DNA of 64,000 bases from Maylandia zebra (taxonomy: Eukaryota > Chordata > Actinopteri > Cichliformes > Cichlidae), in contig NC_135173.1 of assembly GCF_041146795.1 (NCBI RefSeq), positions 57,774,865 through 57,838,864 of the forward strand, given 5' to 3'. Below, in pieces: positions 5,101-64,000 of this stretch. Within the stretch, counting starts at the first letter, position 1. Each line of letters opens with the position of its first letter. Under the pieces are notes generated by a model. The model worked only from the letters and a program-made list of their open reading frames with translations. It was not told where the DNA came from and searched no databases. A program made the position numbers and the translations under genes.

Positions 5101-5121
5101 AAATAGTACATGTGTATATAT

Positions 5122-5300
<179 letters not shown>

Positions 5301-5363
5301 TCACAGTACACCAAATATTTACTTATAAACATGTCTGTGCATTTAGGGACCATCACCATCCTC

Positions 5364-31069: not shown

Positions 31070-32007
31070 GCTTCTTGGTCACAGATGGTGATTTTGAAGA
31101 TGTAGAAAGACAGATTTCTGTGGAAAATAACAAAACTATTTAAGGTTCTGTAGAAGAAGAGCAGTTGCTTGCCATGATGACGATATCAGCAGGAAACCTG
31201 TCGAAAAACAGTAGCAACCCACACATACAACTCTAGAAATCTTCCTTAATTCTATACCAATATGATTCTTGTTTAGTTACGTCAAGGTGCAAAAGGACAC
31301 AGTTAGAGCTTAGATAAGTGTCATGGTGTGGGTTAAAATTCCAGTCTTCGGGCTGTTGTTAGAAAAGTTGAAAAAAAAGAAAGTGCCAGGTGTCGCATGG
31401 CGACACCTGTCGCATATTATATGTATGTGCTAATGTATTTGTTATCTTTAGTCTTACTTTACAATTTGCTTTTTAATTAATTAACTTTTAATTTAATCTA
31501 CTCTGTTTATAAGTGATAATTTCAAATGAATTGCATATATTACAGTTTCTTTACCAAAGTGTGAAACAAATAGTCAGGAAAAGCAAGAAACTGATAATTG
31601 TCATCTTCATTTTCAGCAGTTCTATGTCTGCAGCACAAGCAGAGCCAGCCTCTTTCTATCCGCCTTTGTGCTGTTTGTCCTTGCCTTTTTCTATCAGGCG
31701 AGAAAAGGCTGCAGTTAACAACGTCTCAGACAGTAACACAACATTTTCTTCAGTTAGTCACAGAAACCAAAACACTACAATGAAAAACATTCCTAGACTG
31801 TTTTTTTGGTAATTCTTCTGCTTTTTGTATGTAAAGTAGCAACAGTGGGTTGTCGTGGTTCGGATTTTTGAGGAAGAGACATACGACTGAAAGTCCATAG
31901 TGAGTCAACACAAATGATTTTATTAAAGCACATATATGTGGTGAAGATGGGCTCTGCAAAACATCTGCCTCGATCTCCTGCCTGACAACAGGTGGGTGTG
32001 ATATTTA

Positions 32008-33611
32008 CAGTGGGGCAAAAAAGTATTTAGTCAGCCACCGATTGTGCAAGTTCCCCCACTTAAAATGATGACAGAGGTCAGTAATTTGCACCAGAGGTAC
32101 ACTTCAACTGTGAGAGACAGAATGTGAAAGAAAAATCCATGAATCCACATGGTAGGATTTGTAAAGAATTTATTCGTAAATCAGGGTGGAAAATAAGTAT
32201 TTGGTCACCTCAAACAAGGAAAATCTCTGGCTCTCACAGACCTGTAACGTCTTCTGTAAGAAGCTTTTCTGTCCCCCACTCGTTACCTGTGTGAATGGCA
32301 CCTGTTTGAACTCATCATCTGTTTAAAAGACACCTGTCCACAGCCTCAAACAGTCAGACTCCAAACTCCGCCATGGCCAAGACCAAAGAGCTTGCGAAGG
32401 ACACCAGGAAAAGTATTGTAGACCTGCACCAGACTGGGAAGAGTGAATCTACAATAGGCAAGCAGCTTGGTGTGAAAAAATCAACTGTGGGAGCAATCAT
32501 CAGAAAATGGAAGACATACAAGACCACTGATAATCTCCCCCGATCTGGGGCTCCACGCAAGATCTCATCCCGTGGGGTCAAAATGATCATGAGAACGGTG
32601 AGCAAAGATCCCAGAACCACACGGGGGGACCTGGTGAATGACCTGCAGAGAGCTGGGACCAAAGTAACAAAGGTCACCATCAGTAACACACTACAACGGC
32701 AGGGAATCAAATCCCGCAGTGCCAGACGTGTTCCGCTGCTGAAGCCAGTGCATGTCCAGGCCCGTCTGAAGTTTGCCAGAGAGCACATGGATGATACAGC
32801 AGAGGATTGGGAGAATGTCATGTGGTCAGATGAAACCAAAGTAGAACTTTTTGGTATAAACTCAACTCGTCGTGTTTGGAGGAAGACGAATACTGAGTTG
32901 CATCCCAAGAACACCATACCTACTGTGAAGCATGGGGGTGGAAACATCATGCTATGGGGCTGTTTTTCTGCCAAGGGGACAGGACGACTGATCCGTGTTA
33001 AGAACAGAATGAATGGGGCCATGTATCGTGAGATTTTAAGCCAAAACCTCCTTCCATCAGTGAGAACTTTGAAGATGAAACGAGGCTGGGTCTTCCAACA
33101 TGACAATGATCCAAAACACACCGCCCGGGCAACAAAGGAGTGGCTCCGTAAGAAGCATTTGAAAGTCCTGGAGTGGCCTAGCCAGTCTCCAGACCTCAAC
33201 CCCATAGAAAATCTGTGGCGGGAGTTGAAAGTCCGTGTTGCTCGGCGACAGCCCCAAAACATCACTGCTCTCGAGAAGATCTGCATGGAGGAATGGGCCA
33301 AAATACCAGCTACTGTGTGTGCAAACCTGGTAAAGACCTATAGTAAACGTTTGACCTCTGTTATTGCCAACAAAGGTTATGTTACAAAGTATTGAGTTGT
33401 ATTTTTGTTATTGACCAAAAACTTATTTTCCACCCTGATTTACGAATAAATTCTTTACAAATCCTACCATGTGGATTCATGGATTTTTTTTTCACATTCT
33501 GTCTCTCACAGTTGAAGTGTACCTCTGGTGCAAATTACTGACCTCTGTCATCATTTTAAGTGGGGGAACTTGCACAATCGGTGGCTGACTAAATACTTTT
33601 TTGCCCCACTG
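32008..33611 (+). mobile_element. Intact Tc1 transposon (DD34E), about 1.6 kb
   Basis: The element starts CAGTGGGGCAAAAAAGTATT at 32008 and ends with the complement at 33611. The inverted terminal repeats are about 200 bp (32008-32207 and 33412-33611) and differ at only a few positions. TA flanks both ends (32006-32007, 33612-33613). It encloses a full transposase frame. The near-identical ends and open frame suggest a young copy. It sits in the putative 5' intron of ankrd34b, in opposite orientation to the gene. Confidence 0.95.
32373..33395 (+). CDS. Tc1-type transposase, full length
   Basis: 340 codons without a stop or frameshift. The N-terminal 110 residues carry paired helix-turn-helix DNA-binding domains with a GRPR-like hinge (RSGAPRK). 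The catalytic triad is visible: first Asp in [12 protein letters not shown], second Asp in [11 protein letters not shown], and Glu in [11 protein letters not shown]. Exactly 34 residues lie between the second Asp and the Glu (DD34E, classic Tc1). The enzyme would cut and paste the element at TA sites. Length is normal for the family. The 315-codon minus-strand frame over it is antisense noise. Confidence 0.95.
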
Positions 33612-34543: not shown

Positions 34544-34939
34544 CATTCAGTTATCCTGTTCCGTATTTGGTCAAAACCTCTTTGCTGGTGCCCAGGTCAA
34601 TCACTTGGTTACTGAACTACAGGGAGTGCAGAATTATTAGATAAGTTGTATTTTTGAGGAATGATTTTATTATTGAACAACAACCATGTTCTCAATGAAC
34701 CCAAAAAACTCATTAATATCAAAGCTGAATGTTTTTGGAAGTAGTTTTTAGTTTGTTTTTAGTTTTAGCTATTTTAGGGGGATATCTGTGTGTGCAGGTG
34801 ACTATTACTGTGCATAATTATTAGGCAACTTAACAAAAAACAAATATATACCCATTTCAATTATTTATTTTTACCAGTGAAACCAATTCCACATTCACAA
34901 ATATACATTTCTGACATTCAAAAACAAAACAAAAACAAA

Positions 34940-36076
34940 TCAGCGACCAATATAGCCACCTTTCTTTGCAAGGACACTCAAAAGCCTGCCATCCATGGAT
35001 TCTGTCAGTGTTTTGATCTGTTCACCATCAACACTGCGTGCAGCAGCAACCACAGCCTCCCAGACACTGTTCAGAGAGGTGTACTGTTTTCCCTCCTTGT
35101 AAATCTCACATTTGATGATGGACCACAGGTTCTCAATGGGGTTCAGATCAGGTGAACAAGGTGGCCATGTCATTAGTTTTTCTTCTTTTATACCCTTTCT
35201 TGCCAGCCACGCTGTGGAGTACTTGGACGCGTGTGATGGAGCATTGTCCTGCATGAAAATCATGTTTTTCTTGAAGGATGCAGACTTCTTCCTGTACCAC
35301 TGCTTGAAGAAGGTGTCTTCCAGAAACTGGCAGTAGGACTGGGAGTTGAGCTTGACTCCATCCTCAACCCGAAAAGGCCCCACAAGCTCATCTTTGATGA
35401 TACCAGCCCAAACCAGTACTCCACCTCCACCTTGCTGGCGTCTGAGTCAGACTGGAGCTCTCTGCCCTTTACCAATCCAGCCACGGGCCCATCCATCTGG
35501 CCCATCAAGACTCACTCTCATTTCATCAGTCCATAAAACCTTAGAAAAACCAGTCTTGAGATATTTGCCTTTGGCATTGATTAGAGGGGTTGACTCAATT
35601 TGTTTTAACATGTTTCAATTAATTTTAGTTTTTTAGTTATTTATTTTATCTTATCTCATTTTAATTTTCTTTACTTATGCTATTAGCATGTACAGCACTT
35701 TGTGAACTCTGGTTTTATGTTAAAGTGCTTTATAAATAAAGGTGGTATGGTATTTCTTGGCCCAGTCTTGATGTTTCAGCTTGTGTGTCTTGTTCAGTGG
35801 TGGTCGTCTTTCAGCCTTTCTTACCTTGGCCATGTCTCTGAGTATTGCACACCTTGTGCTTTTGGGCACTCCAGTAATGTTGCAGCTCTGAAATATGGCC
35901 AAACTGGTGGCAAGTGGCATCTTGGTAGCTGCACGCTTGACTTTTCTCAGTTCATGGGCAGTTATTTGGCGCCTTGGTTTTTGCAATTTTGCAATTTTGA
36001 GACTGCTGCATCCCTCTGCAAGATATCTCACTATTTTTGACTTTTCTGAGCCTGTCAAGTCCTTCTTTTGACCCAT
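34940..36076 (-). pseudogene. Disrupted DD37E transposase
   Basis: The N-terminus (MGQKKDLTGSEKSKIVRYL) and C-terminus (MQDNAPSHAS...NPIENLWSIIK, ending GGYIGR) align closely with the intact transposase at 51950-52966. Loss of residues between KIAKL and KPRR, the inserted segment after the WAKKY motif, and a frame change near 35380 destroy the gene. Confidence 0.85.
35568..35752 (-). mobile_element. Short retroelement tail inserted in the DD37E copy
   Basis: Compared with the intact copy, the transposase is split within AAGAAATATCTC by about 180 bp whose one end reads ACCTTTATTTATAAAGCACT, a familiar 3' end of teleost LINE/SINE elements. AAATA occurs on both sides as a possible target duplication. 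Confidence 0.5.
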
Positions 36077-36936
36077 TTTGCCAAAGGAAAGGACGTTGCC
36101 TAATAATTATGCACACCTGATATAGGGTGTTGATGTCATTAGACCACACCCCTTCTCATTACAGAGATGCACATCACCTAATATGCTTAATTGGTAGTAG
36201 GCTTTCGAGCCTATACAGCTTGGAGTAAGAGAACATGCATGAAGAGGATGATGTGGACAAAATACTCATTTGCCTAATAATTCTGCACTCCCTGTATACA
36301 TGCATCTCTTGGGTTCTGGCCTTTGGCATTTGTGTCTTCATAACCTTTTCAGCCACATTATTACAGTATTAGCAGAGGAGTTTGAGCAGTATCTCACAAG
36401 CCCAGATGTGACACTGACATATATAATTTATAGTGTGCACATTATAAATGTGGATCTCTAAGGTAGCATGAAACTAGCATACAACAGATTTGGGATAACA
36501 ATTTGGGATGACAATCTACAATGTAGCTTAAAATCTTCACTCTACCCTTATGCTGTCCTTATTTTCCCTTCAAATGCTTACTAACTGCAGTGCAAACATT
36601 ACACCTTTTGTCTTCCTCTCTGCAGATCTCTAACAGTTCTGCACATTGAATATCAAAAAAATCCACCTCACCTAAACAGTATTAGCTCAACATTCATCCT
36701 GTGGAAGACCACTGTGTGTGTGTTTGTGTGTGTAGATATATGTTTACTGCAAGTGTGTTGTTCATGGTGAGGATCCTAGAGCCATATAATTACAATGCTA
36801 TCTTTGTTACTTCAAAGATTAACATCTTTTGTGCATTAAATTCCATTCAGAGTTATTAACTGGTTGTAAGATAAGCAAAATAATAAAATTAAGTTGCGAA
36901 GTTGAAGAATCGCTACTGTGTATCTGTGTGACTCAC

Positions 36937-42035: not shown

Positions 42036-45000
42036 TCATGCACATCCCTGTGCATGGTAAACAGTTAAATGATGATTATTCAGGGGGTCAAGGAAGGGGG
42101 TGGGAACAGGCTCTTCACCATCACTGATGACCTCTGCCCAAGCTAAAGACAGTCCTTGCACGAATGATTTTGCTGCTGTGATCAGGGGATTCCCTAACTC
42201 TGTATAATCAAGCTGTCGTGGCGGACGACGGTTTCTCTCAGATCTCCTGACAGAATCATTTGTATCTGTTGTTTCCCCTGTATCCATTGGGACCCTTTCC
42301 TCCATTCTTTCCTCAGGATTCGCACCTCTGGTGCCAGCCTCCTCAACTGGAAGTTGCTTTTCTTAGACGTCTGGATCATCAACGGGTGAGTCATTTTCAG
42401 TCGAGGCTGTTTCATCCACTTGTTCGATTGATGTGACTCCATCGGTGGGTAAGTACTCAGTATTATCTGTAGTACTGGCCGGCATATCAGGTATGTTGCC
42501 AAAATGAGATTGGCTGTCAAAATCAGGTGGGTTGTCAATATCAGGGACATTTAGAGGACTCTCACTGACCGTGGGGACAGGGGTGCTCAACCAAACTGGG
42601 ATGAGCAGATCATCTTCTTCATCTGAGGAGTTCTCTTCCTCTAGCACAGGACTTGCATGGGTTCTTGGCCTGCTGACACTGGATTCTGTACATGCTCACT
42701 GGTTTCCTCCACAGGTAGGTAGCCACATGATAGCAACAGATCCCAGTGTAGTGTTCTTAGGGGACCATCTTTGCTTTCAGGCTTAACTGTATATACTGGG
42801 AAGTTGCCTGCTCTACCCACCACTACATGCACAGTGTGTTCCCATTTGTCAGAAATCTTATGTTTCCCCCAGATGCAGACATTCCTGACCAATACTTGAT
42901 CTCCAGCTCCAAGTCTGAGGCAGTTACATATCTGTCAAACCTCATTTTGTTCTTGTGAGCTATCTTTGCAGCCATGTCCGTAGCTAGCCTGTAGCTTTCT
43001 TTGAGACGTGACTTGAGTTTTTGCACATATTCAGAGTGAGACGAGTGCTGTTCCTCCTGAACGCAAGGTCAACTGGTAACTGATGTTGGCGTCCGAACAT
43101 CAGTTCGTATGGGGTGAAACGAGTCACCTCATTCCTGGTGCAGTTATAAGCGTGGACCAGGGGTCTTACATGGTCACGCCAACAGGACTTATTTTGATCA
43201 CGTAGAGTGCCCAACATGTCAAGCAAGGTACAATTAAATCGTTCCACCAGGTTGCCCCTAGGATGGTATTGGGTTGTCCTCATCTTGTGGATACCAGCCA
43301 CCTGACAGAGTTCCTTGATTGTGCGGGACTCGAAATCTGGACCCTGGTCACTATGCAACTTTTCTGGGATGCCATAGTGTAACATAAAGTTTTCCCACAG
43401 ACACTTTGCCACTGTGCGGGCCTTTTATTAGGTATTGGGATAGCAACGGCAAATTTAGTGAAGTGATCTGTGATCACCAATATATCCTTGGTTACACTTT
43501 TTTCAGCTTCCAGGGAGAAGTCCATGCACAAGAGTTCAAGAGGTCGTGTTGTGGTAATGTTGACCAAGGGGGGCGCTCTTTCAGGTTGTGCCTTCCTCCA
43601 CACGCACCTGCCACATGTCTTCACTTTCCTTTCCACGTCCAGAGCCATCCTTGGCCAATAAAATCTGGTCCTTACAAGGTCCAGTGTGACCGATATGATC
43701 ATGCAGGCTGGTGAGGACTATGTTGCGAAGCTCAGCTGGAAGTACAAGCTGGTAGGTTGTCTGGGACCCCTCTTGGCGTCGCCTGTACAAGACATTGTTG
43801 CGGAGCTCGAGACAGTTAAGCTCTCGGAGGAGGAGTGGAAATTCGGGGAGCTGTGTACGCATGGTTGGAGGTGGTGTGTCTCTATGTTCGATCTGGGAAA
43901 TAACATGCTTTATACACTGATCGGCACTTTGCACGTCTGTCAGCTCTGCCTCAGTTAGATGGGGACTGGTTGGCAGACCTCCAAACTGTTCCTCTTGCCC
44001 ATAGCTATCAGGTACAGCGTTAGGAGACATTGCAAGAACCTCCACCAAGGCAACACAATCTGCATCTGCCCCTCTTTCATCGTCAGGACTGACGCTGTAG
44101 GTGAACTGCCTCTCACAGATTGCTTTCACAACAGACTGATTGACTCCATTGACGTTGTCTGGATCACAAAGGTGATCTTGAGTGAACTGTTGTATGCGTT
44201 CAATCTCTTTTTGTGATTTCAGCTCATCCGCTAGCCCTCCATGTCGTCTGCGTGATAATCCATCCGCATCTCCATTCTGCTTCCCTGGACGTAGAGGAGT
44301 TTGAAAGAGAATGTGGACAGTGCTGCTAGCCACCTATAGCTAGTTGCGCCAACTTTTGCTGAAGTCAGAATGTAAGTCAGCGGATTACTATCCGTTATCA
44401 TGGTGAAGTGGTTGCCGTAGAGATAGTGACTGAACTTTTCTGTATCTGACCACTTGAGTGCCAAAAACTCCAACTTGTGCGCTGGATAGCGATTTTCGCT
44501 CCGTGGCAGCCCTCTACTTGCGTAGCCTATGACTCTAAGTTGGCCTTCTTGCTCCTGATACAACACAGCACTGAGCCCGGTGGTACTGGCGTCGGTGTGC
44601 AGTATATAGGGTTTCTGGGGATCAGCGAAGGCAAGTACAGGGGCTGTGGTGAGCCTTTTGATGACTGACATGAAGGCTTGCTGGTAAGCTGGCGTCCAGC
44701 GACCTCCAAAGGACTCCTTTGGGTCATGGTACTGATGTGCATTTTGTCTTGAGTTTTCTTTTAATTTCTTGTGGCTAGGTGGATACCCCGAGGTTAAGTT
44801 GTGGAGAGGTTTCACAATGCTGGAATACCCTTTAACAAACCTTCTATAGTACCCACCAAAACCAAGAAACGACTTTAACGTTCGCACAGTCTGAGGGACA
44901 GGCCATGTTTTAAGAGCCGAAATTTTCTCAGGGTCAGTCTGAACACCATTTCTGGAGACCACATGTCCCAGATAACGGACTTAAGTCTGGAAGAAGACGC

Positions 45001-50571: not shown

Positions 50572-50882
50572 GCGGAGGTGGTGCAGTGTTTGGCACTTTT
50601 CCCTTATAGCAACTATGTCTTGGGTCCAAATTTACAATCCGACTGGGGCCTTTCTTTCTTTCTTTTCTGGTGGGCCTTTCTGCATGGAGTTTGCATGTCC
50701 TTTTTATGTCTGTGTGGGTTCTCTACAGGTACTGTGACTGCTCCCACAGTCCTGAGATATGCAGATAGTGGAGTAAGGTAAATTTGTGATTTTAAATTGG
50801 GTTTAGATATGAATGTTAGTGCGAATGGTTGTCTGTCTCTCTGTGTTAGCCCTGTCCAGGGTGTACCCTGCCTCTTGCCCCA
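50572..50882 (+). repeat. Left part of a SINE-type repeat split by the 10.66 kb element
   Basis: A tRNA-like head (GGCGGAGGTGGTGCAGTG), GGAGTTTGCATGTCC, CCCACAGTCCTGAGATATGC and GTCCAGGGTGTACCCTGCCT follow in the family's normal order, then stop at CCCCA (50882). The missing 3' part, TGGCACCAGCACCCCTGAAA and an AGATGGATGAA tail, resumes at 61541. Confidence 0.7.
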
Positions 50883-50925
50883 CACTCAGAAAAATAAAAG
50901 GTGCCAACTGGAACCAAAAGTGGTT

Positions 50926-51200
50926 CTTTAGACTGATGCCATAGAAGAACCTTTTTTGGTGCCACAAAGAACCTTTCAAACAATGGTTCTTTGAAGAACC
51001 ATTTCTTTCAGTGGTTCATTGAAGAACCTTTAAAGGTGCCCCAAAGAACCATCAAGAAATGGTTCTTTGGGGCACCTTTAATGGTTTTTCAAAGAACCTT
51101 TTTAAAAATAGTTCTTTAAAGAATCATTTTTAAAAAGGTCCTTCAAATGGTTCTTTAAAAGAACCATTTTAAAGAACCTTTTTTGAGTGGTTCTTTAAAA
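50926..51200. repeat. Left subterminal AGAACC/GGTTCTTT repeat cluster
   Basis: More than a dozen copies of GGTTCTTT or AAAGAACC in both orientations, with local hairpins such as GGTGCCCCAAAGAACC and its complement. The matching right cluster is at 61388-61530. Subterminal motif clusters of this kind are transposase-binding arrays in CACTA elements. Confidence 0.8.
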
Positions 51201-51234
51201 AAACATTTTAAATCTTTCAAAATAAAATGCATCA

Positions 51235-51729
51235 TAAATTGAATTTGAGTAGGGTAAAAATAAATACGAGCACAGCATAGACATATATTAATGGTTTATT
51301 GTCATTTTGTAGTTACCAAAAGACAAAAAGGCATTTTAACCCTCAGCACAACATCACTACTAATACATGTCACATATTAGTGTTTTAAACAGTAATAATT
51401 AAATATATTTGCTATACTATAAATAAATATATATATAAATACTATAGCTACAGATAACACAACAATACATGTATTGTTTAATTAATAAAACATCAGAAAG
51501 TGATAAAACACATTAGAAATAGCAATAGCTTCATAACAGACCAATAAATCAACACATTTTCATCAGCAGATGTTTGTATGTTCAGTAAAAATATTTCAAC
51601 AACAAGTTTATGATTAAAATGATCAATGAACTTTAGCATTACGCTATGTAATGTACGTTTCATGTTGTACTCATGGTCCTTTGTTAGTCCAGTTTAGGAT
51701 AATGTCTCTGACGTATGTTTCATATCAAA
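51235..51729. other. AT-rich cargo, nothing recognised
   Basis: No frames or repeat ends between the subterminal cluster and the DD37E element. Confidence 0.3.
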
Positions 51730-51731
51730 TA

Positions 51732-53291
51732 CAGGGAGTGCAGAATTATTAGGCAAATGAGTATTTTGTCCACATCATCCTCTTCATGCATGTTGTCTTA
51801 CTCCAAGCTGTATAGGCTCGAGAGCCTACTACCAATTAAGCATATTAGGTGATGTGCATCTCTGTAATGAGAAGGGGTGTGGTCTAATGACATCAACACT
51901 CTATATCTGGTGTGCATAATTATTAGGCAACGTCCTTTCCTTTGGCAAAATGGGTCAAAAGAAGGACTTGACAGGCTCAGAAAAGTCAAAAATAGTGAGA
52001 TATCTTGCAGAGGGATGCAGCAGTCTCAAAATTGCAAAGCTTCTGAAGCGTGATTATCGAACAATCAAGCGTTTTATTCAAAATAGTCAACAGGGTCGCA
52101 AGAAGCGTGTGGAAAAACCAAGGCGCAAAATAACTGCCCATGAACTGAGAAAAGTCAAGCGTGCAGCTGCCAAGATGCCACTTGCCACCAGTTTGGCCAT
52201 ATTTCAGAGCTGCAACATCACTGGAGTGCCCAAAAGCACAAGGTGTGCAATACTCAGAGACATGGCCAAGGTAAGAAAGGCTGAAAGACGACCACCACTG
52301 AACAAGACACACAAGCTGAAACGTCAAGACTGGGCCAAGAAATATCTCAAGACTGATTTTTCTAAGGTTTTATGGACTGATGAAATGAGAGTGAGTCTTG
52401 ATGGGCCAGATGGATGGGCCCGTGGCTGGATTGGTAAAGGGCAGAGAGCTCCAGTCCGACTCAGACGCCAGCAAGGTGGAGGTGGAGTACTGGTTTGGGC
52501 TGGTATCATCAAAGATGAGCTTGTGGGGCCTTTTCGGGTTGAGGATGGAGTCAAGCTCAACTCCCAGTCCTACTGCCAGTTTCTGGAAGACACCTTCTTC
52601 AAGCAGTGGTACAGGAAGAAGTCTGCATCCTTCAAGAAAAACATGATTTCCATGCAGGACAATGCTCCATCACACGCGTCCAAGTACTCCACAGCGTGGC
52701 TGGCAAGAAAGGGTATAAAAGAAGAAAAACTAATGACATGGCCTCCTTGTTCACCTGATCTGAACCCCATTGAGAACCTGTGGTCCATCATCAAATGTGA
52801 GATTTACAAGGAGGGAAAACAGTACTCCTCTCTGAACAGTGTCTGGGAGGCTGTGGTTGCTGCTGCACGCAATGTTGATGGTGAACAGATCAAAACACTG
52901 ACAGAATCCATGGATGGCAGGCTTTTGAGTGTCCTTGCAAAGAAAGGTGGCTATATTGGTCGCTGATTTGTTTTTGTTTTGTTTTTGAATGTCAGAAATG
53001 TATATTTGTGAATGTGGAGATGTTATATTGGTTTCGCTGGTAAAAATAAATAATTGAAATGGGTATATATTTGTTTTTTGTTAAGTTGCCTAATAATTAT
53101 GCACAGTAATAGTCACCTGCACACACAGATATCCCCCTAAAATAGCTAAAACTAAAAACAAACTAAAAACTACTTCCAAAAACATTCAGCTTTGATATTA
53201 ATGAGTTTTTTGGGTTCATTGAGAACATGGTTGTTGTTCAATAATAATATTCCTCAAAAATACAACTTGCCTAATAATTCTGCACTCCCTG
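51732..53291 (+). mobile_element. Intact Tc1/mariner-type DD37E transposon, 1.56 kb
   Basis: Ends CAGGGAGTGCAGAATTATTA (51732) and its complement (ending 53291), flanked by TA on both sides. The terminal repeats share the CCTAATAATT motif twice per end: at the tip, and about 170 bp inward on each side next to CATAATTATTAGGCAA. It encloses a complete transposase. It lies only 28 bp from the broken nesprin exon. Confidence 0.93.
51950..52966 (+). CDS. DD37E transposase, full length
   Basis: 338 codons without interruption. The N-terminus MGQKKDLTGSEKSKIVRYL begins a helix-turn-helix DNA-binding region. Catalytic residues are the Asp of LWTDEMRVSL, the Asp of SMQDNAPSHAS and the Glu of LNPIENLW, with 37 residues between the last two. 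That spacing, length and sequence style fit the DD37E (TRT-like) group known from teleosts. The enzyme would move the element at TA targets and could also mobilise the broken copy at 34620-36294. Confidence 0.93.
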   Translation: MGQKKDLTGSEKSKIVRYLAEGCSSLKIAKLLKRDYRTIKRFIQNSQQGRKKRVEKPRRKITAHELRKVKRAAAKMPLATSLAIFQSCNITGVPKSTRCAILRDMAKVRKAERRPPLNKTHKLKRQDWAKKYLKTDFSKVLWTDEMRVSLDGPDGWARGWIGKGQRAPVRLRRQQGGGGVLVWAGIIKDELVGPFRVEDGVKLNSQSYCQFLEDTFFKQWYRKKSASFKKNMISMQDNAPSHASKYSTAWLARKGIKEEKLMTWPPCSPDLNPIENLWSIIKCEIYKEGKQYSSLNSVWEAVVAAARNVDGEQIKTLTESMDGRLLSVLAKKGGYIGR

Positions 53292-53319
53292 TATATGTCA
53301 TATCAAAACAAGCCCACAC

Positions 53320-53686
53320 CTGCAGTTGTTTCAGTTTTTCACTGGTGTTTCCTGTCAGCTGGTCAACCTCACATCCATATCAGCCAACCAAATGACAAGT
53401 TCCTCCCTTTGTGCTTCAAATCCCTCCCACTCTGAGACAAGGAGCTGAAAGAGATCGAGAAAAGAGTCAATTATAAAGAAGAGAAAAGTGAAACCCTCCT
53501 CAGAAGGTCTGACTCGCATACCTGCAGTTGACCTGTGATGGACTCCAGTTTGGCGTTCACGTCATCCCTCGCCGATGCCAGCAGCCGAGTCTGCAGGGTG
53601 CCCTGGAAGAGCTCAGTTAATGTTCGACTCCTCCTGGTCAGGCTCTCCAGCTGGATGAGCCGAGGTCTCCCCTCTCGCCGCTGCCT
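53320..53686 (-). pseudogene. Nesprin (syne) gene fragment, two exons, second one frameshifted
   Basis: Exon A (53522-53686) has an acceptor (tgttcag) and a donor (gtatgc) and encodes 55 residues from RQRREGRPRL to AKLESITGQLQ in phase 0. Exon B (53320-53444) has an acceptor (ctctttcag) and a donor (CTGCAG|gtgtgg). It begins LLVSEWEGFEAQREELVIWL and continues ADMDVRLT. This is a spectrin repeat of the nesprin type (KASH-linker proteins that tether the nucleus to the cytoskeleton). After RLT about 13 bp are lost: the frame then hits a stop, while TGNTSEKLKQLQ continues in the next frame. Neighbouring nesprin exons are absent. I infer a captured or duplicated fragment, not a working gene. Assignment to syne1, syne2 or another member is not possible here. 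Confidence 0.75.
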
Positions 53687-53699
53687 CTGAACACAGAAA

Positions 53700-54534
53700 C
53701 ACAAATTGCATCTGAAGCAGGAGGTGCAGATTTTTTTGCTATTCTTTTCTAAATCCAGGCTAGATCACGTGGAGGTATTTGGAAAACTTTTTTGGCCAGC
53801 GGACAACTGTTGTCTTGCAGAAAGTCAAATCAAACATATGCGATACACAATCAATTCACAAGAGCACATAAAAAAATAAGTCCAGTTCTTGCCTGATTTC
53901 AAGTGAAATCTGCATCAAAACAGGGTGACAGAAGTAAAACGAGAGCACAAAGCCTCACTTTTTACAAGCCTGCTATTACAGTTCTCCTCTATGCAGACGA
54001 CTTTCCTGTTTTCAAGGCGCAACTTGGATCTGCTGTACGAATCTTATGGATACACACTAAATGAAACAATAGTGTGCATGACTCCAGATTCTGATCCCTC
54101 ATCCTAATATGGTCCCAACATAGCAACAGCAAGAAAGCAAATGTTGAGGCTTCAAAATACAAAGTCCATAAACCAATGGCTGACATGGGTTTTATCATAA
54201 GGGTGATAAATATACAAATTTCAGTCTGTCTTAGAGATTTGATGTTCATTTACCTGCAGATGCACTATACGTACCTGCTCCATGGTTTTTCACAACATTT
54301 TGCACATCACTATTTAATACAGGAAGTAGGTGAACTAAAACAAGTCATCGTTCTTTGTGAGAGGACCATATTAATGAAACCAACCTCAATGACATCATAG
54401 GGATCCCTAAAGATGCTCCTGCTGCTTTTCTTCCTCCTCATCCTAAGCTTCCTTCTCCTTGTCCTCGCCTTCCATCCAATTGTAATTCAACCTAATTGTG
54501 TTTCTCCCCCTCCTCTTCCTCATTTTGTTACTTG
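53700..54534. other. Cargo between nesprin exons and the palindrome
   Basis: No further nesprin exon is visible. About 54130-54200 is a diverged copy of the dispersed repeat at 38150-38285. A pyrimidine-rich stretch lies at 54410-54540. Confidence 0.35.
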
Positions 54535-57500
54535 TGTCAAGCCAGCCTCCAATTCGAGACTTGCAGTCAAGCCAGCCTCCAGTTTGTTTTACGTTCCCTG
54601 TGTATTCAAAGTATTACGGGAATGGATGTGGAAACCGGATTTCAAAATAAAAGCCAACTTCGAGTGAATTAACAGATATGTTAAGAACATAATAACATAT
54701 AATTTAGGCTTTTTTTTTTTTTACAAACTCTAATGTTAGATCTATATGACACAGCCTTGTACCCTAATTGTGCCCTGTCACTATCAAGGCCATCTTATTT
54801 TGGATTTCAAAGTAAAAGCCCTGTGAATCTTCATTTTTGAACTACTCTTTCAATGACTTAATAATGCTCTTAAAAGCAAAAGTCGTATTTCCAAATACTA
54901 TTTGAACTTTATATCAACACTTTCCAACCACAGTCTTTTTACAGTGATACCATATCAATATCAAGTCAGTCTGATTTTGCCTTTCATAGTAATGGCCCTT
55001 TGAAATTGTCCACAATTGACCTAACTTTCAGTGATTTCAAAATGCTCTAAAATGGCACATTCCTGTTTCCACAGGGTAATTCCACCTTAGATCAACAGTA
55101 TACAGCCCCACAGTGATACCATATCAATATCAAGTCATTCTGATTATGCCTTCCAAAATAAATGCCCTTTCAAATTGAGCATATACGGCCTACTTTTTTG
55201 ACGATTTCAAAATGTTCTTAAACAGAATTTTGCTGTTTCCACAGGATAATTTCACTTTAGGTCAACAGTATACAACCTCACGATGTTACCATATCAATTT
55301 CAAGTAATTCTGATTATGCCTTCCAAAATAATGGCCTGTTGAAAATGCCCATAATTGACCTAACTTTCAGTGATTTCAGAATGCTCTAAAAAGGAAGATT
55401 TCAGTTTCCACAGGATAATTCCACTTTAGATCAACAGTATCCAACCCGACAGTAAAACCATGTAAATTTCATGTTGGTCTGATTTCGCCTTTCAAATTAA
55501 TGGCCCGTCGAATTTGTCCATATGTGATATACTCTTTCAATTATTTCAGAATGTTTTAAAAATGAAAATTGCTGTTTCAACACATATTGGGTTTTCATTT
55601 TGAAAAGCAAAATCAGACTCAATTGATTATGACAGAATTGAATCATAAAGATGATGTAAAAGGAAGCTGAAATTGCCACTAGGTTGTAATTGATAGTACG
55701 TTTATATTTTAAGTCTGTGGAAAGATGTCATTCTAAATAAAGAAATTACAAAACAGCTTGCAAACCAACCATGACATCTTTCCACAGACTTAAAATATAA
55801 ACGTACTATCAATTACAACCTAGTGGCAATTTCAGCTTCCTTTTACATCATCTTTATGATTCAATTCTGTCATAATCAATTGAGTCTGATTTTGCTTTTC
55901 AAAATGAAAACCCAATATGTGTTGAAACAGCAATTTTCATTTTTAAAACATTCTGAAATAATTGAAAGAGTATATCACATATGGACAAATTCGACGGGCC
56001 ATTAATTTGAAAGGCGAAATCAGACCAACATGAAATTTACATGGTTTTACTGTCGGGTTGGATACTGTTGATCTAAAGTGGAATTATCCTGTGGAAACTG
56101 AAATCTTCCTTTTTAGAGCATTCTGAAATCACTGAAAGTTAGGTCAATTATGGGCATTTTCAACAGGCCATTATTTTGGAAGGCATAATCAGAATTACTT
56201 GAAATTGATATGGTAACATCGTGAGGTTGTATACTGTTGACCTAAAGTGAAATTATCCTGTGGAAACAGCAAAATTATGTTTAAGAACATTTTGAAATCG
56301 TCAAAAAAGTAGGCCGTATATGCTCAATTTGAAAGGGCATTTATTTTGGAAGGCATAATCAGAATGACTTGATATTGATATGGTATCACTGTGGGGCTGT
56401 ATACTGTTGATTTAAGGTGGAATTACCCTGTGGAAACAGGAATTTTCCATTTTAGAGCATTTTGAAATTGTTCCAGGATCAAGTCAGATATGGGCAGTTT
56501 GAAAATGCTTTTATTTTTGAAAGCAAAATCAGAATGACTTGATATTGATATGGTAACATCGTCAGGTTGTATACTGTTGAACTAAAGTGAAATTATCCTG
56601 TGGAAACAGCAAAATTCTGTTTAAGAACATTTTGAAATCGTCAAAAAAGTAGGCCGTATATGCTCAATTTGAAAGGGCATTTATTTTGGAAGGCATAATC
56701 AGAATGACTTGATATTGATATGGTATCACTGTGGGGCTGTATACTGTTGATCTGGAGTGGAATTACCCTGTGGAAACAGGAAATTTCCATTTTAGAGCAT
56801 TTTGAAATCACTGAAAGTTAGGTCAATTATGGACAATTTAAAAAGTCTTTTACTTTGGAAGGCATAATCAGAATGACTTGACATTGATATGGTATCACTG
56901 TGGGGCTGTATACTGTTGATCTAAGGTGGAATTACCCTGTGGAAACAGGAATTTTCCATTTTAGAGCATTTTGAAATTGTTCCAGGATCAAGTCAGATAT
57001 GGGCATTTTGAAAATGCTTTTATTTTTGAAAGCAAAATCAGAATGACTTGATATTGATGTGGTAACATCGTGAGGTTGTATACTGTTGACCTAAAGTGAA
57101 ATTATCCTGTGGAAACAGCAATTTTCACTTTTAGAGCATTTTGAAATCTTTAAAAGAGTAGGTCGTATCTTGGCAATTTGAAAAGTCTTTTATTTTGGAA
57201 GGCATAATCAGAATGACTTGATATTGATATGGTAACATCGTGAGGTTGTATACTGTTGACCTAAAGTGAAATTATCCTGTGGAAACAGCAAAATTCTGTT
57301 TAAGAACATTTTGAAATCGTTAAAAAAGTAGGTCGTATATATGCTCAATTTGAAAGGGCATTTATTTTGGAAGGCATAATCAGAATGACTTGATATTGAT
57401 ATGGTATCACTGTGGGGCTGTATACTGTTGATCTAAGGTGGAATTACCCTGTGGAAACAGGAATTTTCCATTTTAGAGCATTTTGAAATTGTTCCAGGAT

Positions 57501-58328
57501 CAAGTCAGATATGGGCAGTTTGAAAATGCTTTTATTTTTGAAAGCAAAATCAGAATGACTTGATATTGATATGGTAACATCGTCAGGTTGTATACTGTTG
57601 AACTAAAGTGAAATTATCCTGTGGAAACAGCAAAATTCTGTTTAAGAACATTTTGAAATCGTCAAAAAAGTAGGCCGTATATGCTCAATTTGAAAGGGCA
57701 TTTATTTTGGAAGGCATAATCAGAATGACTTGATATTGATATGGTATCACTGTGGGGCTGTATACTGTTGATCTAAGGTGGAATTACCCTGTGGAAACAG
57801 GAATGTGCCATTTTAGAGCATTTTGAAATCACTGAAAGTTAGGTCAATTGTGGACAATTTCAAAGGGCCATTACTATGAAAGGCAAAATCAGACTGACTT
57901 GATATTGATATGGTATCACTGTAAAAAGACTGTGGTTGGAAAGTGTTGATATAAAGTTCAAATAGTATTTGGAAATACGACTTTTGCTTTTAAGAGCATT
58001 ATTAAGTCATTGAAAGAGTAGTTCAAAAATGAAGATTCACAGGGCTTTTACTTTGAAATCCAAAATAAGATGGCCTTGATAGTGACAGGGCACAATTAGG
58101 GTACAAGGCTGTGTCATATAGATCTAACATTAGAGTTTGTAAAAAAAAAAAAAGCCTAAATTATATGTTATTATGTTCTTAACATATCTGTTAATTCACT
58201 CGAAGTTGGCTTTTATTTTGAAATCCGGTTTCCACATCCATTCCCGTAATACTTTGAATACACAGGGAACGTAAGACAAACTGGAGGCTGGCTTGACTGC
58301 AAGTCTCGAATTGGAGGCTGGCTTGACA
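54535..58328. repeat. Foldback-type giant inverted repeat with ~170-bp tandem units
   Basis: The left arm 54535-55731 (1197 bp) and right arm 55771-58328 (2558 bp) are inverted copies around a 39-bp spacer (55732-55770). They begin and end TGTCAAGCCAGCC / GGCTGGCTTGACA. Each arm is built from ~170-bp tandem monomers with the landmark ATACTGTTGA or its complement: 4 in the left arm and 12 in the right. The arm lengths differ by 1361 bp, that is 8 units of 170. Flanks show no clear target duplication. Twin 60-codon frames at 55497-55679 and 55823-56005 are mirror images and not genes. Confidence 0.9.
55990..57960 (+). repeat. ~170-bp tandem repeat array, right arm
   Basis: Landmark TATACTGTTGA recurs near 56229, 56400, 56570, 56740, 56908, 57079, 57249, 57420, 57591 and 57761, with weaker copies near 56062 and 57937. 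Two monomer types (GTATCACTGTGGGG and GTAACATCGT) are interspersed. The block near 56520-56860 recurs almost unchanged 1021 bp later (six monomers), so there is higher-order structure. Confidence 0.9.
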
Positions 58329-58594
58329 CCAGTATTTTGTTGGAGCTGTGAACACAATTAATGTGAATCTGGATTAATTTGTGCAAACAAGAAAAATCTA
58401 CAGCTTTTTGGTCAGAGGTGCTCTTGTGATTTAAGCCGGGTAGAGTAGATTTATGTGTTGATGCTACCTGCTTCAGCTCTGGCTGCTGAGTGATATTTAC
58501 ACCCTGGCTGGACTACAAACTTTAACCATGTGCTGAACTTTGGCCCGGCGTTGATACCTCTTGTTAGTATAACGACCTCTTCTTAGCTTGTATG

Positions 58595-59972
58595 TAGAGC
58601 TGGGCGATATGAGATTTTTTCATATCACGATATGTTTTTTTCATTTCAGGCGATAACGATATCTATCACGATATAAGCCAAATAACTATATTTGTAAGAT
58701 TTAAATGTGCCGTTGCTCACAAGTAAAATGTGAAATAATCAGCAGCTTGTTTTTAAATATTTATTTCCCATAATAAGTTCAACAGGGTAGATGTACTTAA
58801 GGAACATGAGACTTTTTCAGATAAATAAAGGCAAATATTGCAAACTACACAAAAGGCAGCCGCTAAAGCGTTTAAGTTTCAAAATAGAACAAACGAAACA
58901 GACTAAATTGTCAATTCCACTTAGAAATAAAGTATTAATTCTAAAAATAAATCTTAGTTTGTTTTACAGAAGAACAGACAAAACTGACTAACTTTTGTCA
59001 ATATCAAGTAAACTGAGAACTAAAAGGAAATTCTCAATCTCTCCTTGTTGTATAGCTGAGCTTTTCAAACAGTTGTAACAGTTACTTTAGTCTGACAAAA
59101 GCCGAATGATGAATTAGCGCTTTCAGTCAGAGACTGAGGCTACGTCCACACGTACACGGGTATTTTTGAAAACGGAGATTTTCCGTTTTCGTTTTAAAAA
59201 ATAATCCCGTCCACACATAAAGGGAGAAATGAAAGAAAACGCTGCTATGAACATGCCAAAGCAGCAGGTGGCGCTAGATTCCTAACCGTGCAGAAATGTT
59301 GGCCAATCAGAAGTCTAGAAGCCTCGGTGGGAAAAAGTAAACAAAGCTGGGGCATAGAAGCAGAACCGAGTCGTATGTGTGGAGGGACAGTAACTGTGTG
59401 TATATGTAAGCATTTAAACACTGCAGAGAGTAGAATTAACAGTATTGTAGAAATTCATTTCACCGAAACAATAACGTGGCGCACAGTGTGACGCATGCAC
59501 CAGTTTATTGTATTTCCAGACTTGCTTTCGGCACAATTTACAGTGCACGCTACTCTGTTTTTTGTCAGACTTGAAATAGCCGAAATACCTTCACACTACG
59601 GAACTTCTATGGCTCTTCCGTTCGACAATCTCTCTGGCATTGGAACCATCATCTGTTTTCTCTTCGGTCACGCTCGGTTGATTTTTCTAGTCGGCACACT
59701 CATTTCCTCCATTATGCGCTGGCTCCATTACCCGCTGGCTGCTTCCCAAACAAACACAGTGCGGCTTGGCACTTGTGCTGTACGTAACAAGTCACGCGAC
59801 GTGACGCTGCGGCTGTGATTGGTTCGGCTCTGCGCTACTGAATTTGGATCGGCTGACCTTTTTTTTTTTTAAGAGGACAAGAGCGGCGAGGTCTATCGCG
59901 ATAGCTTAATTTCTCTATCGAGTAAAAGTTATATCGCGATACATATCGTTATCGTTCTATCGCCCAGCTCTA
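58595..59972. mobile_element. hAT-like non-autonomous element with perfect 8-bp target duplication
   Basis: Inverted ends TAGAGCTGGGCGATA and TATCGCCCAGCTCTA bound 1378 bp. CTTGTATG occurs directly before (58587-58594) and after (59973-59980). Subterminal CGATAT motifs lie at both ends. Inside, about 59145-59230 (CGTCCACACGTACACGGG) is a piece of another familiar fish repeat. The 107-codon frame at 59495-59818 has no transposase motifs. Confidence 0.85.
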
Positions 59973-59980
59973 CTTGTATG

Positions 59981-60655
59981 TATGATGTATGATGGTGGAT
60001 AAATGAAATATACAAAAAAATTAACTATATTACAAAAGAACATCTACCTTGGAAACATCAAATGACCGGAGCATAACTTGTCAACTAGTCCGAAACTAAG
60101 TTATGCAGGAACAGTCAAAGACTCATGTCACATTTCTATTCATTTCTATATAATTCGATTAGACAATAAAGAGTCATCTAATCTAATTATTCATTCAAAA
60201 CACTTATGCATAGCTGTATTTTATACAGCTCATACAGAATTCAAAGTACAGGTTCATGTGAGTATTTAATGTACGGCTCAGATCTACAGAATTTCAAGAG
60301 TTTCTAGAGCAGACACAGAGCTCACGTCACAACAGGCTTCAGGCGCCATTTTAGTGACTTTAACAATATATTACATTTTAATTTCGGTCTAGCTGACATT
60401 AGGTTATGTACGCAGCACGCAATTGAGCCACATATTTTAGAAGCCAAAGGTTCAAATTAGCTGGGAGCAGCTTCACTTAATTATAACAGTGGTTTTGTTA
60501 GGAAAACCGTTGGATACTAAATTGCGTTGACCTCAACGGCTAACGTATCTAGCTAATCGCTACTGTTAGCACAACATTAACAGCAAGCTACAATGACGAG
60601 TAACAAAAACAAAACAGTAATAAGGTTTTAATGAAAATGTTTTACATTTTTTTAC
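59981..60655. other. Cargo right of the hAT-like element, nothing recognised
   Basis: AT-rich with one GGCGCCATTTT stretch near 60340-60352, which resembles a YY1-type site. No gene seen. Confidence 0.3.
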
Positions 60656-60850
60656 AGTCCCACAATCCACAGCTTCAAAGTCCAGCAGGTACTGAAGACT
60701 GTTATCCGTTTCGCTGTCACCGTCCGTGAGTTTTTTTTCCCGAAGGTCAAGGCCCGCCGCTCGCACACTCTGCCTGCGCATACGCATCCCAACGACTGAC
60801 CCCCTCCGTCCGCTCCCGGGAGGTTACAGTATGACCTGTTCTGACGTCAC
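60656..60850 (-). promoter_or_regulatory. CpG-containing possible promoter and first exon on the minus strand
   Basis: This is the most CpG-rich stretch inside the 10.66 kb element, with TGACGTCA-like (CRE) and GCGTATGCGCAGG (NRF1-like) motifs. A minus-strand frame from an ATG at 60787 (MRMRRQSVRAAGLDLREKKL) runs to DCGT and a possible donor (GGGACT|gtaaaa, exon base 60656). I do not recognise the protein. The donor is weak and the exon is conjectural. Confidence 0.3.
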
Positions 60851-61387
60851 TCTCTCTCTCCCTGTCATTTATTTGGCTCGAAACACATATTAACAAATTG
60901 ATCAGTGATGAACAACTACTCAGATCATTTACCTAAGCAGTGTGCTTTGTCAAAACGAAGTCTGTGTCCATTACACTGACATTCTGTTCTGCAATTGTTA
61001 TTTACTTGTATTTTATAATTTGACTTTACATACTGCTGGGTGGTTTGTAAAGTTTACAATAACTAGTATTATCATTATGCTATATTTTCAAAAATATATA
61101 ATAATCTCAAAAGTAATGCCTTGGAGTAGAAAATAGTAATGCTTTATTAAAATTTAAAACTAAAGTACAGTATTTGAATGTGTGTATTGTGTCTATTGTT
61201 TGCAAATATTTCTAACTTTTATTTGAATATTCAGTTTCCTACCATCTTCTCTTAAAGGGTAATTGCCAGGTATCCCGCCCTTCCCCTTCGCACACACATG
61301 CACACAAAGAAAACACACAGTATAATTCACAGCCTCATTATAGTGAATAAATATTTATGCCATTTACACCATCAAACTTAGATTGCT

Positions 61388-61530
61388 AAGGATAAAGAAC
61401 CTTTTGTTCTTTAAAGAACCATTTGTAATAGCTGAAGAACCATCCACAAAATAAAAAGGTTCTTTGACGTATGATGGTTCTTTAAAGAACCATGAAGACA
61501 TCTGAAGAACCATTTAAGAACCATAATTTT
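61388..61530. repeat. Right subterminal AGAACC/GGTTCTTT repeat cluster
   Basis: About ten AAAGAACC/GGTTCTTT motifs, including the palindrome GGTTCTTTAAAGAACC, lie just inside the right terminus at 61538. They mirror the left cluster. Confidence 0.8.
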
Positions 61531-61540
61531 TCTGAGTGCA

Positions 61541-63149: not shown

Positions 63150-63740
63150 TTTTGTTTTTTCACAGCGAAACGTGTGCTGTGTAAAACTGTGGGTGTGTAA
63201 ACTTTGGTGCACTTTGGTTTGCGCTGCTTAAATGGAACTCCTGCGAGGCTCCGCGCTCAGAGAGCAGCGCGCGGGCTGCGGCGATCTAAGTTGATGTCAA
63301 AGCCGATTAGCGCTGATGTCCGTCGTGATTCTGTTTTCACCGTCTGTTCACTGAGTCTATTTCTGTGTGCTGTTGTTGGCGGTACTACACACTCCGTCGT
63401 TTTCCTCATTTTTTTAACCACCAGGACAGAAACACACTGGCTTTCTAGGTCATGTCCGAACTTTGCAGCATGGAGATGTGTTGAAGCGGTGCTGCTTTTC
63501 AACGGTTCAGCTGACACTGGAGCGTGTATTTGACAGTCTGGTAAGAGTGATGCACTCTCCAACTTTTTATGCCATGGTAAACCTGGATTACCTTTTTCTG
63601 CAGTTGAGATGTTAACCACTTTCTCTTCAGTATCCATCCGGTAGAGATAACGGTAGCGATATCGAGGATGCGTGATGTGATACATATGTTTGCTCTTTGA
63701 AGTTGGGACCAAAATAAGGACAGGACTCAGTGTAAACATA
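63150..63740 (+). promoter_or_regulatory. rasgrf2: Probable rasgrf2 promoter and 5' UTR
   Basis: GC and CpG content rises at about 63230-63320 (CTCCGCGCTCAGAGAGCAGC, GCGCGCGGGC). The transcript start probably lies in this range. No upstream exon can be fixed. The frames at 63204-63533 and 63257-63814 appear non-coding. Confidence 0.4.
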
Positions 63741-64000
63741 ATGCAGAAGAGCGTGCGGTACAATGAGGGCCACGCTCTGTATCTGTCAGTGGTTGCGCGC
63801 AAAGAGGGGACCAAGCGCGGCTACCTGAGCAAGAAGACCACAGAGAACAGTCGCTGGGCTGAGAAGTACTTCGCCCTCTACCAGAATGTGCTCTTCTACT
63901 TCGAGAACGACCAGAGCGCACGGCCCTCAGGTATATACCTGCTGGAGGGATGCACATGCGAGAGGGCGCCGGCGTCCAAAGTGTCCGCCATCAGCAAGGA
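63741..64000 (+). CDS. rasgrf2: Ras-specific guanine nucleotide-releasing factor 2, first coding exon (partial, runs off window)
   Basis: 86 codons from the ATG at 63741 to the window end. The N-terminus [15 protein letters not shown] is the RASGRF2 signature; the paralogue RASGRF1 begins differently (MQKGIRL). The start of the first PH domain follows: [34 protein letters not shown] and [15 protein letters not shown]. RasGRF2 is a calcium/calmodulin-regulated exchange factor for Ras and Rac at membranes, mainly in neurons. IQ, DH, REM and CDC25 domains would lie in exons to the right. The neighbourhood of ankrd34b and rasgrf2 matches mammals, although the mammalian DHFR-MSH3 pair is not found in the gap here. 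Confidence 0.94.

Follow-up and report, generated by a model that had tools for sequence, protein, structure and literature searches.

We analysed a 64,000-nucleotide (nt) stretch of the Maylandia zebra genome (contig NC_135173.1, positions 57,774,865 to 57,838,864; here called the window), and found that its 10.66-kb block at 50883-61538 is very probably a single member of a young, multi-copy family of Pack-CACTA transposons, and that this member was later enlarged by nested insertions. By its ends and internal make-up, the core of the block is classed as a non-autonomous CACTA/EnSpm-type element, a multi-copy Pack-CACTA. Gene-carrying elements with terminal inverted repeats (TIRs) in animals and Pack-CACTA elements in plants are already known. 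The novel aspect is a CACTA element, in a fish, that holds two whole exons and occurs at a minimum of 58 loci.

The block begins and ends with the 13-bp TIR CACTCAGAAAAAT, and matches to it with 0-1 mismatch were found in the 64-kb window solely at 50883 on the plus strand and, inverted, at 61526-61538. The flanks read ...CCCCA/CACTCAG on the left and CTGAGTG/CATGGC on the right, with a CA on each side. The motif AGAACC/GGTTCT has 48 sites in the window; 13 are packed into a 0.27-kb stretch at the left end of the block and 8 into one of 0.13 kb at its right end (Table 1). The identical inverted ends, the paired AGAACC-rich clusters and the CA on both sides had all been claimed in an earlier sequence-only reading of the window, and all were borne out. 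They agree with the marks of the CACTA/EnSpm (CMC) group: TIRs starting with CACT, a target duplication of 2-3 bp (CA in the window, and 2 bp in 18/18 readable relatives) and short subterminal repeats. A 3-bp target duplication is typical of CACTA elements in plants. When IMG/VR was scanned for the element ends, 9 contigs came up; none of them had blastn similarity to the window at E 0.001, and they were set aside as chance.

It had also been proposed that an older repeat breaks off at the left end of the block and resumes at the right end. This was upheld in part. The joined flanks match 38 other repeat copies in the genome, and 29 of these extend past the junction, 16/38 by at least 5 bases and one copy alone beyond those 5. 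Two copies were read beyond the junction: the tail of one (L042) resembles the right flank (CCTGAA...AGAAGAAAATGGAT), but that of the other (L041) does not. Within the window, the alignment of the right flank to one copy of the repeat at 23.4 kb was not significant, with 177/1729 control stretches scoring as well. The older repeat supports a single insertion at the window site; the stronger proof of a single unit is that other sites hold this core complete with its two ends.

The window's own genome (962 Mb, 63 contigs) was searched with two queries. With the left end (301 bases), the best 40 of 167 first-look candidates were scored. All 40 were full-length matches, 39 of them beyond the window at 98-99% identity (98-100% with the window included). 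With the middle, non-CACTA segment (here called the captured segment), the best 40 of 157 candidates were scored, leaving 117 lower ones unscored; the 40 matches have 95-100% identity, 38 being nearly full length and 2 partial. The two lists merge into at least 58 loci on 23 contigs. Scoring by its design favours the nearest copies, and old or broken ones are therefore under-sampled. In twenty relatives the reading covered 10 kb starting at the left end; 19 further listed copies were read for 900 bases, and the 18 loci known through the captured segment alone for 80 bases.

A common core was found in 20/20 relatives, comprising in order window positions 50883-51731, 53292-54529, 58334-58596 and 59973/59985-61538. 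Much of the last part is gone in L026; an insert divides it in L028, where its very end lies outside the pieces read. Without nested elements the window core measures 3,898 bp, and nine relatives that have no large inserts measure 3,897-4,106 bp. The right inverted repeat was found in 18/20 relatives; L023 has no last bases, and L028 runs beyond its piece. All 18 relatives with a right end have matching 2-bp flanks (8 TG, 7 TA, 2 CA, 1 AA). This distribution, over at least 58 loci and with 2-bp duplications at 18 other sites, is the multiplication by transposition expected of Pack-TYPE or Pack-TIR elements. Moreover, L029, L032 and L033 have terminal branches below 0.1% in a tree of 21 cores, which points to very recent jumps.

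The shorter reads gave a similar picture. Among the 19 copies read for 900 bases, the captured segment was reached in 10 and a Tc1/mariner element in 9, and each of those 9 has a captured-segment match a few kb inward. Among the 18 loci known through the captured segment alone, 11 adjoin the CACTA left part and 7 adjoin only Tc1, so that CACTA sequence is joined in 51/58 loci (40 with a left end plus 11/18). Two separate small CACTA-ended elements flanking unrelated host DNA could in principle mimic one element, as paired small elements can by general reasoning, and the sequence-only reading had named many solo ends as the sign of this arrangement. No such picture emerged from the 40 scored left ends: 31 read into the captured segment (21 including the window, plus 10/19), and 9 have Tc1 and a captured match inward. 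With an identical core bearing both ends and 2-bp duplications at 18 other sites, this arrangement was rejected and is given a negligible chance.

Three elements are nested in the window copy. The Tc1 element has a transposase frame that matches DDE_3 at 2e-15 and is flanked by a TA duplication. It lies at the same site in 6/21 copies read through, 9/19 of the shorter reads and 7/18 of the captured-segment loci (22/58 in all), and therefore travelled along with the CACTA element. In the tree, the six Tc1 copies cluster (support 0.84), as do L022 and L025, which hold one long interspersed nuclear element (LINE)-like insert (1.00). Two LINE-like inserts were seen, each at one site in several copies: one at 1391-3818 of L022 and also in L025, the other at 3592-5514 of L031 and also in L028 and L036. 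Judged by the look of their frames, they appear to contain reverse transcriptase, and retrotransposons may thus hitch-hike with this CACTA element too.

The other two nested elements are a foldback palindrome, with arms of 831 nt that share 98% identity, and a hAT-like element. The giant palindrome claimed earlier is thus real. The palindrome has the inverted ends ACTKGTGTCAAGCC, and is itself hAT-like by the length of its 8-bp duplication. None of the 20 relatives read through these sites holds either element (0/20; with the window, the reads across these sites cover 21 of the 58 loci). Given their absence from 20/20 relatives and the separate 8-bp duplication that flanks each of them, both most likely entered the window copy later and are private to it. 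A different history would be that the whole 10.66-kb block moved, both inserts having been part of its progenitor. The entire block does interrupt one repeat with CA on each side, and the order of events cannot be read from the window alone; however, the nearest relative (L019, 0.72% from the window core) and 19 others lack both inserts. This history is very unlikely, and the 10.66-kb block was rejected as the mobile unit. The sequence-only reading, which took the whole block for one unit, is thus right for the core of ~3.9 kb, with or without Tc1, but not for the palindrome and the hAT-like element; it had allowed that the block "grew inside one".

The sequence-only reading found no CACTA transposase in the block, and we found none either. 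Outside Tc1, all open reading frames (ORFs) inside the block are at most 110 amino acids (aa), although not every one was run against Pfam. A CACTA relative with a long frame was found by extending L028 with L038 (contig C33, 4053-13792). It is 9,740 bp long, has exact 13-bp ends and CA/CA flanks, and holds an open frame of 817 aa between the same ends. This relative is nested three levels deep, lying in opposite orientation inside the LINE-like insert that itself lies inside the L028 pack element.

We compared the relative with the L032 pack element (3,906 bp, promoter side first). Pieces within 1-1592 of L032 match it, at 95% over the terminal 240 bp and at 88-89% and 75% inward, and 3098-3906 matches at 83%. 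Positions 1593-3097 of L032 have no match, and nothing in the pack element corresponds to 1615-8999 of the relative, where the 817-aa frame lies. Thus, since the two match near both ends and not in the middle, ~7.4 kb was replaced by ~1.5 kb, and the pack middle shows no DNA match to the 817-aa region, as expected of an element with no transposase of its own. The 817-aa frame is probably a transposase. Pfam gave Transposase_21 at residues 261-397 (E = 0.12, below cut-off). The frame that follows it gave a weak SAM_1 match (E = 0.11), and all six further ORFs of the relative have weak Pfam matches only, this one among them. In fish, EnSpm elements typically encode two proteins, a zinc-finger transposase and one that contains SAM. 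The donor-like site AAAAG/GTAAAAC of a likely first exon is common to the relative and 17/21 pack copies; it reads AAAAT/GTAAAAC in the window, and 3 pack copies were unmatched by the script. AATAAA near the other end is present in L032, the relative and the window (51295-51300). Their putative roles are those of a first exon and a polyadenylation signal, respectively.

The segment that replaced the CACTA middle is exon-like. Between intact ends, L032 carries 1,505 bp of sequence that is not transposon-derived, with two exon-like stretches in phase 0 that together encode 100 aa: exon A, of 165 nt, and exon B, of 135 nt. They lie on the minus strand, in the same direction as the 817-aa frame of the relative, and are present in 20/20 relatives read for 10 kb. 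The exon alignment had 19 rows (the window and 18 relatives; L022 and L025 were omitted, as the LINE-like insert splits the region), and all four splice borders are intact in 19/19. The 10-bp deletion in exon B of the window is common to four Tc1-bearing relatives; the Tc1-bearing L034 does not have it. Intact borders would also be seen if the exons belonged to a host gene spanning the window. But the same exons occur in 20 relatives, the segment is repeated at 58 or more loci, and the neighbouring ORFs tested encode MARVEL, ankyrin and PH domains, so such a gene was rejected with hardly any probability left to it.

The sole Pfam family reported for the exons was Spectrin_SYNE1 (nesprin-1), at E = 0.0075 and 16.4 bits versus a cut-off of 35. 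By its sequence likeness the pair is described as spectrin-repeat-like, with nesprin as a lead only. The sequence-only reading had called them nesprin exons: exon-like, spectrin-repeat-like DNA is indeed present, but the nesprin identity is not supported, as the match falls short of the cut-off and the parent was not located. We chose the broader name because the Pfam match is sub-threshold and the 9 kb read at each nesprin locus shows no DNA match over more than 20 bases.

Several observations weigh against the Pack-CACTA reading or parts of it. In the tree, L028, L031 and L036, which share the other LINE-like insert, fall in one clade (1.00) with the insert-free L021 and L027, with a weak inner node (0.18). 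For the 817-aa frame, Transposase_21 was listed behind three other weak Pfam matches, including zf_Hakai (0.019) and a capsid family (0.037), all sub-cut-off, and an NCBIfam search gave no match. A closer transposase source may exist, the relative being 74-95% similar. No more than 7/19 copies keep the two exons open and in frame; variable sites of exon A fall 12/9/3 at codon positions 1/2/3 among 21 copies, with a stop in 4/21. Coding constraint was rejected on these grounds, and the exons drift without it. The nesprin match is sub-threshold, and weaker for the window's own exon version (0.08). A PDB search with the exons gave no match; a separate one up to E 10 gave 5 weak sequences (best a WD-40 repeat protein, 0.012) that were of no use. 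The PF25034 profile has 10 matches in the genome, which by position form four loci. Reading 9 kb at each of the four nesprin loci gave no stretch of DNA that matches the captured segment over more than 20 bases, only a distant repeat similarity of ~26%; thus neither a match above the curated cut-off nor a parent exon in a nesprin gene was obtained. Nor was a parent gene recognised among the best 40 of the 157 captured-segment matches.

The middle segment could instead be the CACTA family's own gene, from another autonomous lineage, and not host DNA. The host parent was not found among the scored matches, and the relative read represents a single lineage. On the other side stand the two exons with canonical splice borders in 19/19 rows, their phase-0 lengths in L032 and the spectrin repeat as sole Pfam family, and the relative holds the 817-aa frame and other ORFs in the corresponding region. 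Spectrin repeats are not known as a gene of CACTA elements. An origin within the CACTA family is therefore considered unlikely, and the exons would derive from a host gene, nesprin or other.

Taken together, the Pack-CACTA reading suggests the following course. A CACTA/EnSpm element would have lost its inner ~7.4 kb, with the probable transposase and what lies downstream, and taken up ~1.5 kb of genomic sequence that includes two spectrin-repeat-like exons plus intron DNA, oriented like the lost frame. Both ends, the promoter-side region and the AATAAA end would have been retained. By analogy with animal cases, gap filling or template switching are candidate routes for acquiring the host DNA. 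The element may then have spread by cut-and-paste to dozens of sites, with transposase supplied in trans by relatives with identical ends; the shared ends and the copy number point to mobilisation by the transposase of this CACTA family. Tc1 would have landed in one lineage and been carried along, and the foldback and hAT-like elements would have landed later in the window copy, extending it to 10.66 kb. The element may make a chimeric transcript. That it is a working exon-shuttling cassette, in which the CACTA promoter side, a first exon whose donor-like site is shared with the relative, two spectrin-type exons with unbroken splice borders and the AATAAA end form one transcription unit at dozens of sites, is an unlikely proposal.

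Table 1. Features of the block and its borders (window coordinates; a point marks features without strand)
Feature	Coordinates	Strand	Evidence
Target duplication CA, left	50881..50882	.	2-bp duplications also in 18/18 readable relatives
Left 13-bp TIR CACTCAGAAAAAT	50883..50895	+	same in relatives
CACTA's own 3' end, AATAAA at 51295-51300 on minus strand	50883..51706	-	83% over 825 bp to relative
Left subterminal AGAACC/GGTTCT cluster, 13 sites	50922..51194	.	motif count
Captured (non-CACTA) segment, part 1	51707..51731	-	no match in relative
Tc1/mariner nested at TA	51732..53291	+	transposase ORF uninterrupted between 51920 and its stop at 52966; site shared by 22/58 loci
Captured segment, part 2, holding both exons	53292..54529	-	40 scored genome matches at 95-100%, 38 nearly full length
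Exon B, spectrin-repeat-like, 10-bp deletion in window	53320..53444	-	135 nt in 12/19 aligned copies
Exon A, 165 nt, phase 0, spectrin-repeat-like	53522..53686	-	alignment of copies
Foldback palindrome, 3.8 kb, 170-bp tandem units	54530..58333	.	8-bp duplication ATTTTGTT (54522-54529 / 58334-58341); absent from 20/20 relatives
Captured segment, part 3	58342..58558	-	relative comparison
CACTA's own promoter-side sequence, inner edge, ending in hAT target site CTTGTATG	58559..58594	-	relative comparison
hAT-like element	58595..59972	.	8-bp duplication CTTGTATG (58587-58594 / 59973-59980); absent from 20/20 relatives
CACTA's own 5'/promoter side	59981..61538	-	75% inner, 95% terminal 240 bp to relative
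Right subterminal AGAACC/GGTTCT cluster, 8 sites	61396..61522	.	motif count
Right 13-bp TIR	61526..61538	-	motif match
Target duplication CA, right	61539..61540	.	flank reading

Similar elements are known from plants and animals. Catoni et al. reportedly described Pack-TYPE elements of Arabidopsis. The likeness to plant Pack elements that had been noticed in the window is supported, since exon-like DNA between CACTA ends was seen directly in the related copies. As far as the available text of the cited papers goes, plant Pack-CACTA/Pack-TYPE elements (PMC8903248) are likewise non-autonomous CACTA elements carrying host coding DNA; unlike them, the window element has an animal host and 2-bp duplications. 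In animals, 370 Pack-TIRs were found in 100 genomes, eight of them in zebrafish; 87% are hAT or Tc/Mariner, and the median capture is 224 bp (PMC8277862, available text). Only four multi-copy cases (1.4%) were reported there in reference genomes, together with one fly family, and a frog family on three chromosomes served as the example. Gap filling or template switching was proposed for the captures, and in the available main text CACTA is mentioned just in a reference title. Like the window element, these Pack-TIRs hold non-transposon, sometimes exonic sequence between TIR ends and show multi-copy spread with distinct target-site duplications; unlike them, the window element is a CACTA element with ~1.5 kb, two exons and no fewer than 58 loci. 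The claim that such an element is unusual in a teleost therefore stands for its copy number, but not for gene capture as such, as gene-capturing TIR elements have been published for animals including zebrafish.

The zebrafish CMC-EnSpm element is large, with the 13-bp TIR CACTCAAAAAAAT, two full proteins and three full copies, according to the part of PMC11202377 that is available. The window element resembles it in TIR length and in 12/13 TIR bases, and differs in being non-autonomous. SmTRC1 and animal CACTA elements have 2-bp flanking repeats in 7/14 copies (PMC1636069, available part). The window element shares such repeats, but those elements carry a transposase and have other TIRs. The platyfish Helitron with an SGNH hydrolase gene (PMC4021074, available part) likewise comes from a fish and has taken up a host gene and made it mobile, but it is a Helitron and not a TIR element. 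Among the literature matches listed, in a coverage that leaves out most subscription papers and all repeat databases, we found no case of gene capture by an animal CACTA element.

The neighbourhood of the block contains further mobile elements. A second copy of the nested Tc1/mariner family lies in opposite orientation at 34664-36297, with shorter frames only, and a different Tc1, at 32310-33392, has a Sleeping-Beauty-type helix-turn-helix and an open frame of 361 aa. A retroelement with RNase H-like reverse transcriptase domains was found at 44234-44980 on the minus strand, and the long frames around 42-45 kb suggest that it may be part of a larger retroelement. The neighbouring genes at 5103-6395 (+), 17514-18281 (+), 29474-31078 (-) and 63681-63998 (+) comprise, by Pfam, two MARVEL frames, an ankyrin-repeat frame and a PH-domain exon. 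Candidate names for them include occludin, ANKRD34 and RASGRF.

Cut-and-paste gene capture is best known in plants, and the survey of 100 animal genomes lists four multi-copy cases in its available text (PMC8277862). With a young family whose nested insertions can be placed in sequence, and a relative in the same genome that has the inner genes, the element described here offers a vertebrate test of how such elements are born and spread. The same family allows a test of whether captured exons get transcribed or spliced into host genes. If the cassette proposal is true, the element could yield chimeric RNA of spectrin type, which would be coding in copies with two open exons or would give rise to silencing RNA directed at the parent gene, or its spectrin-type exons could splice into host genes at the insertion sites.

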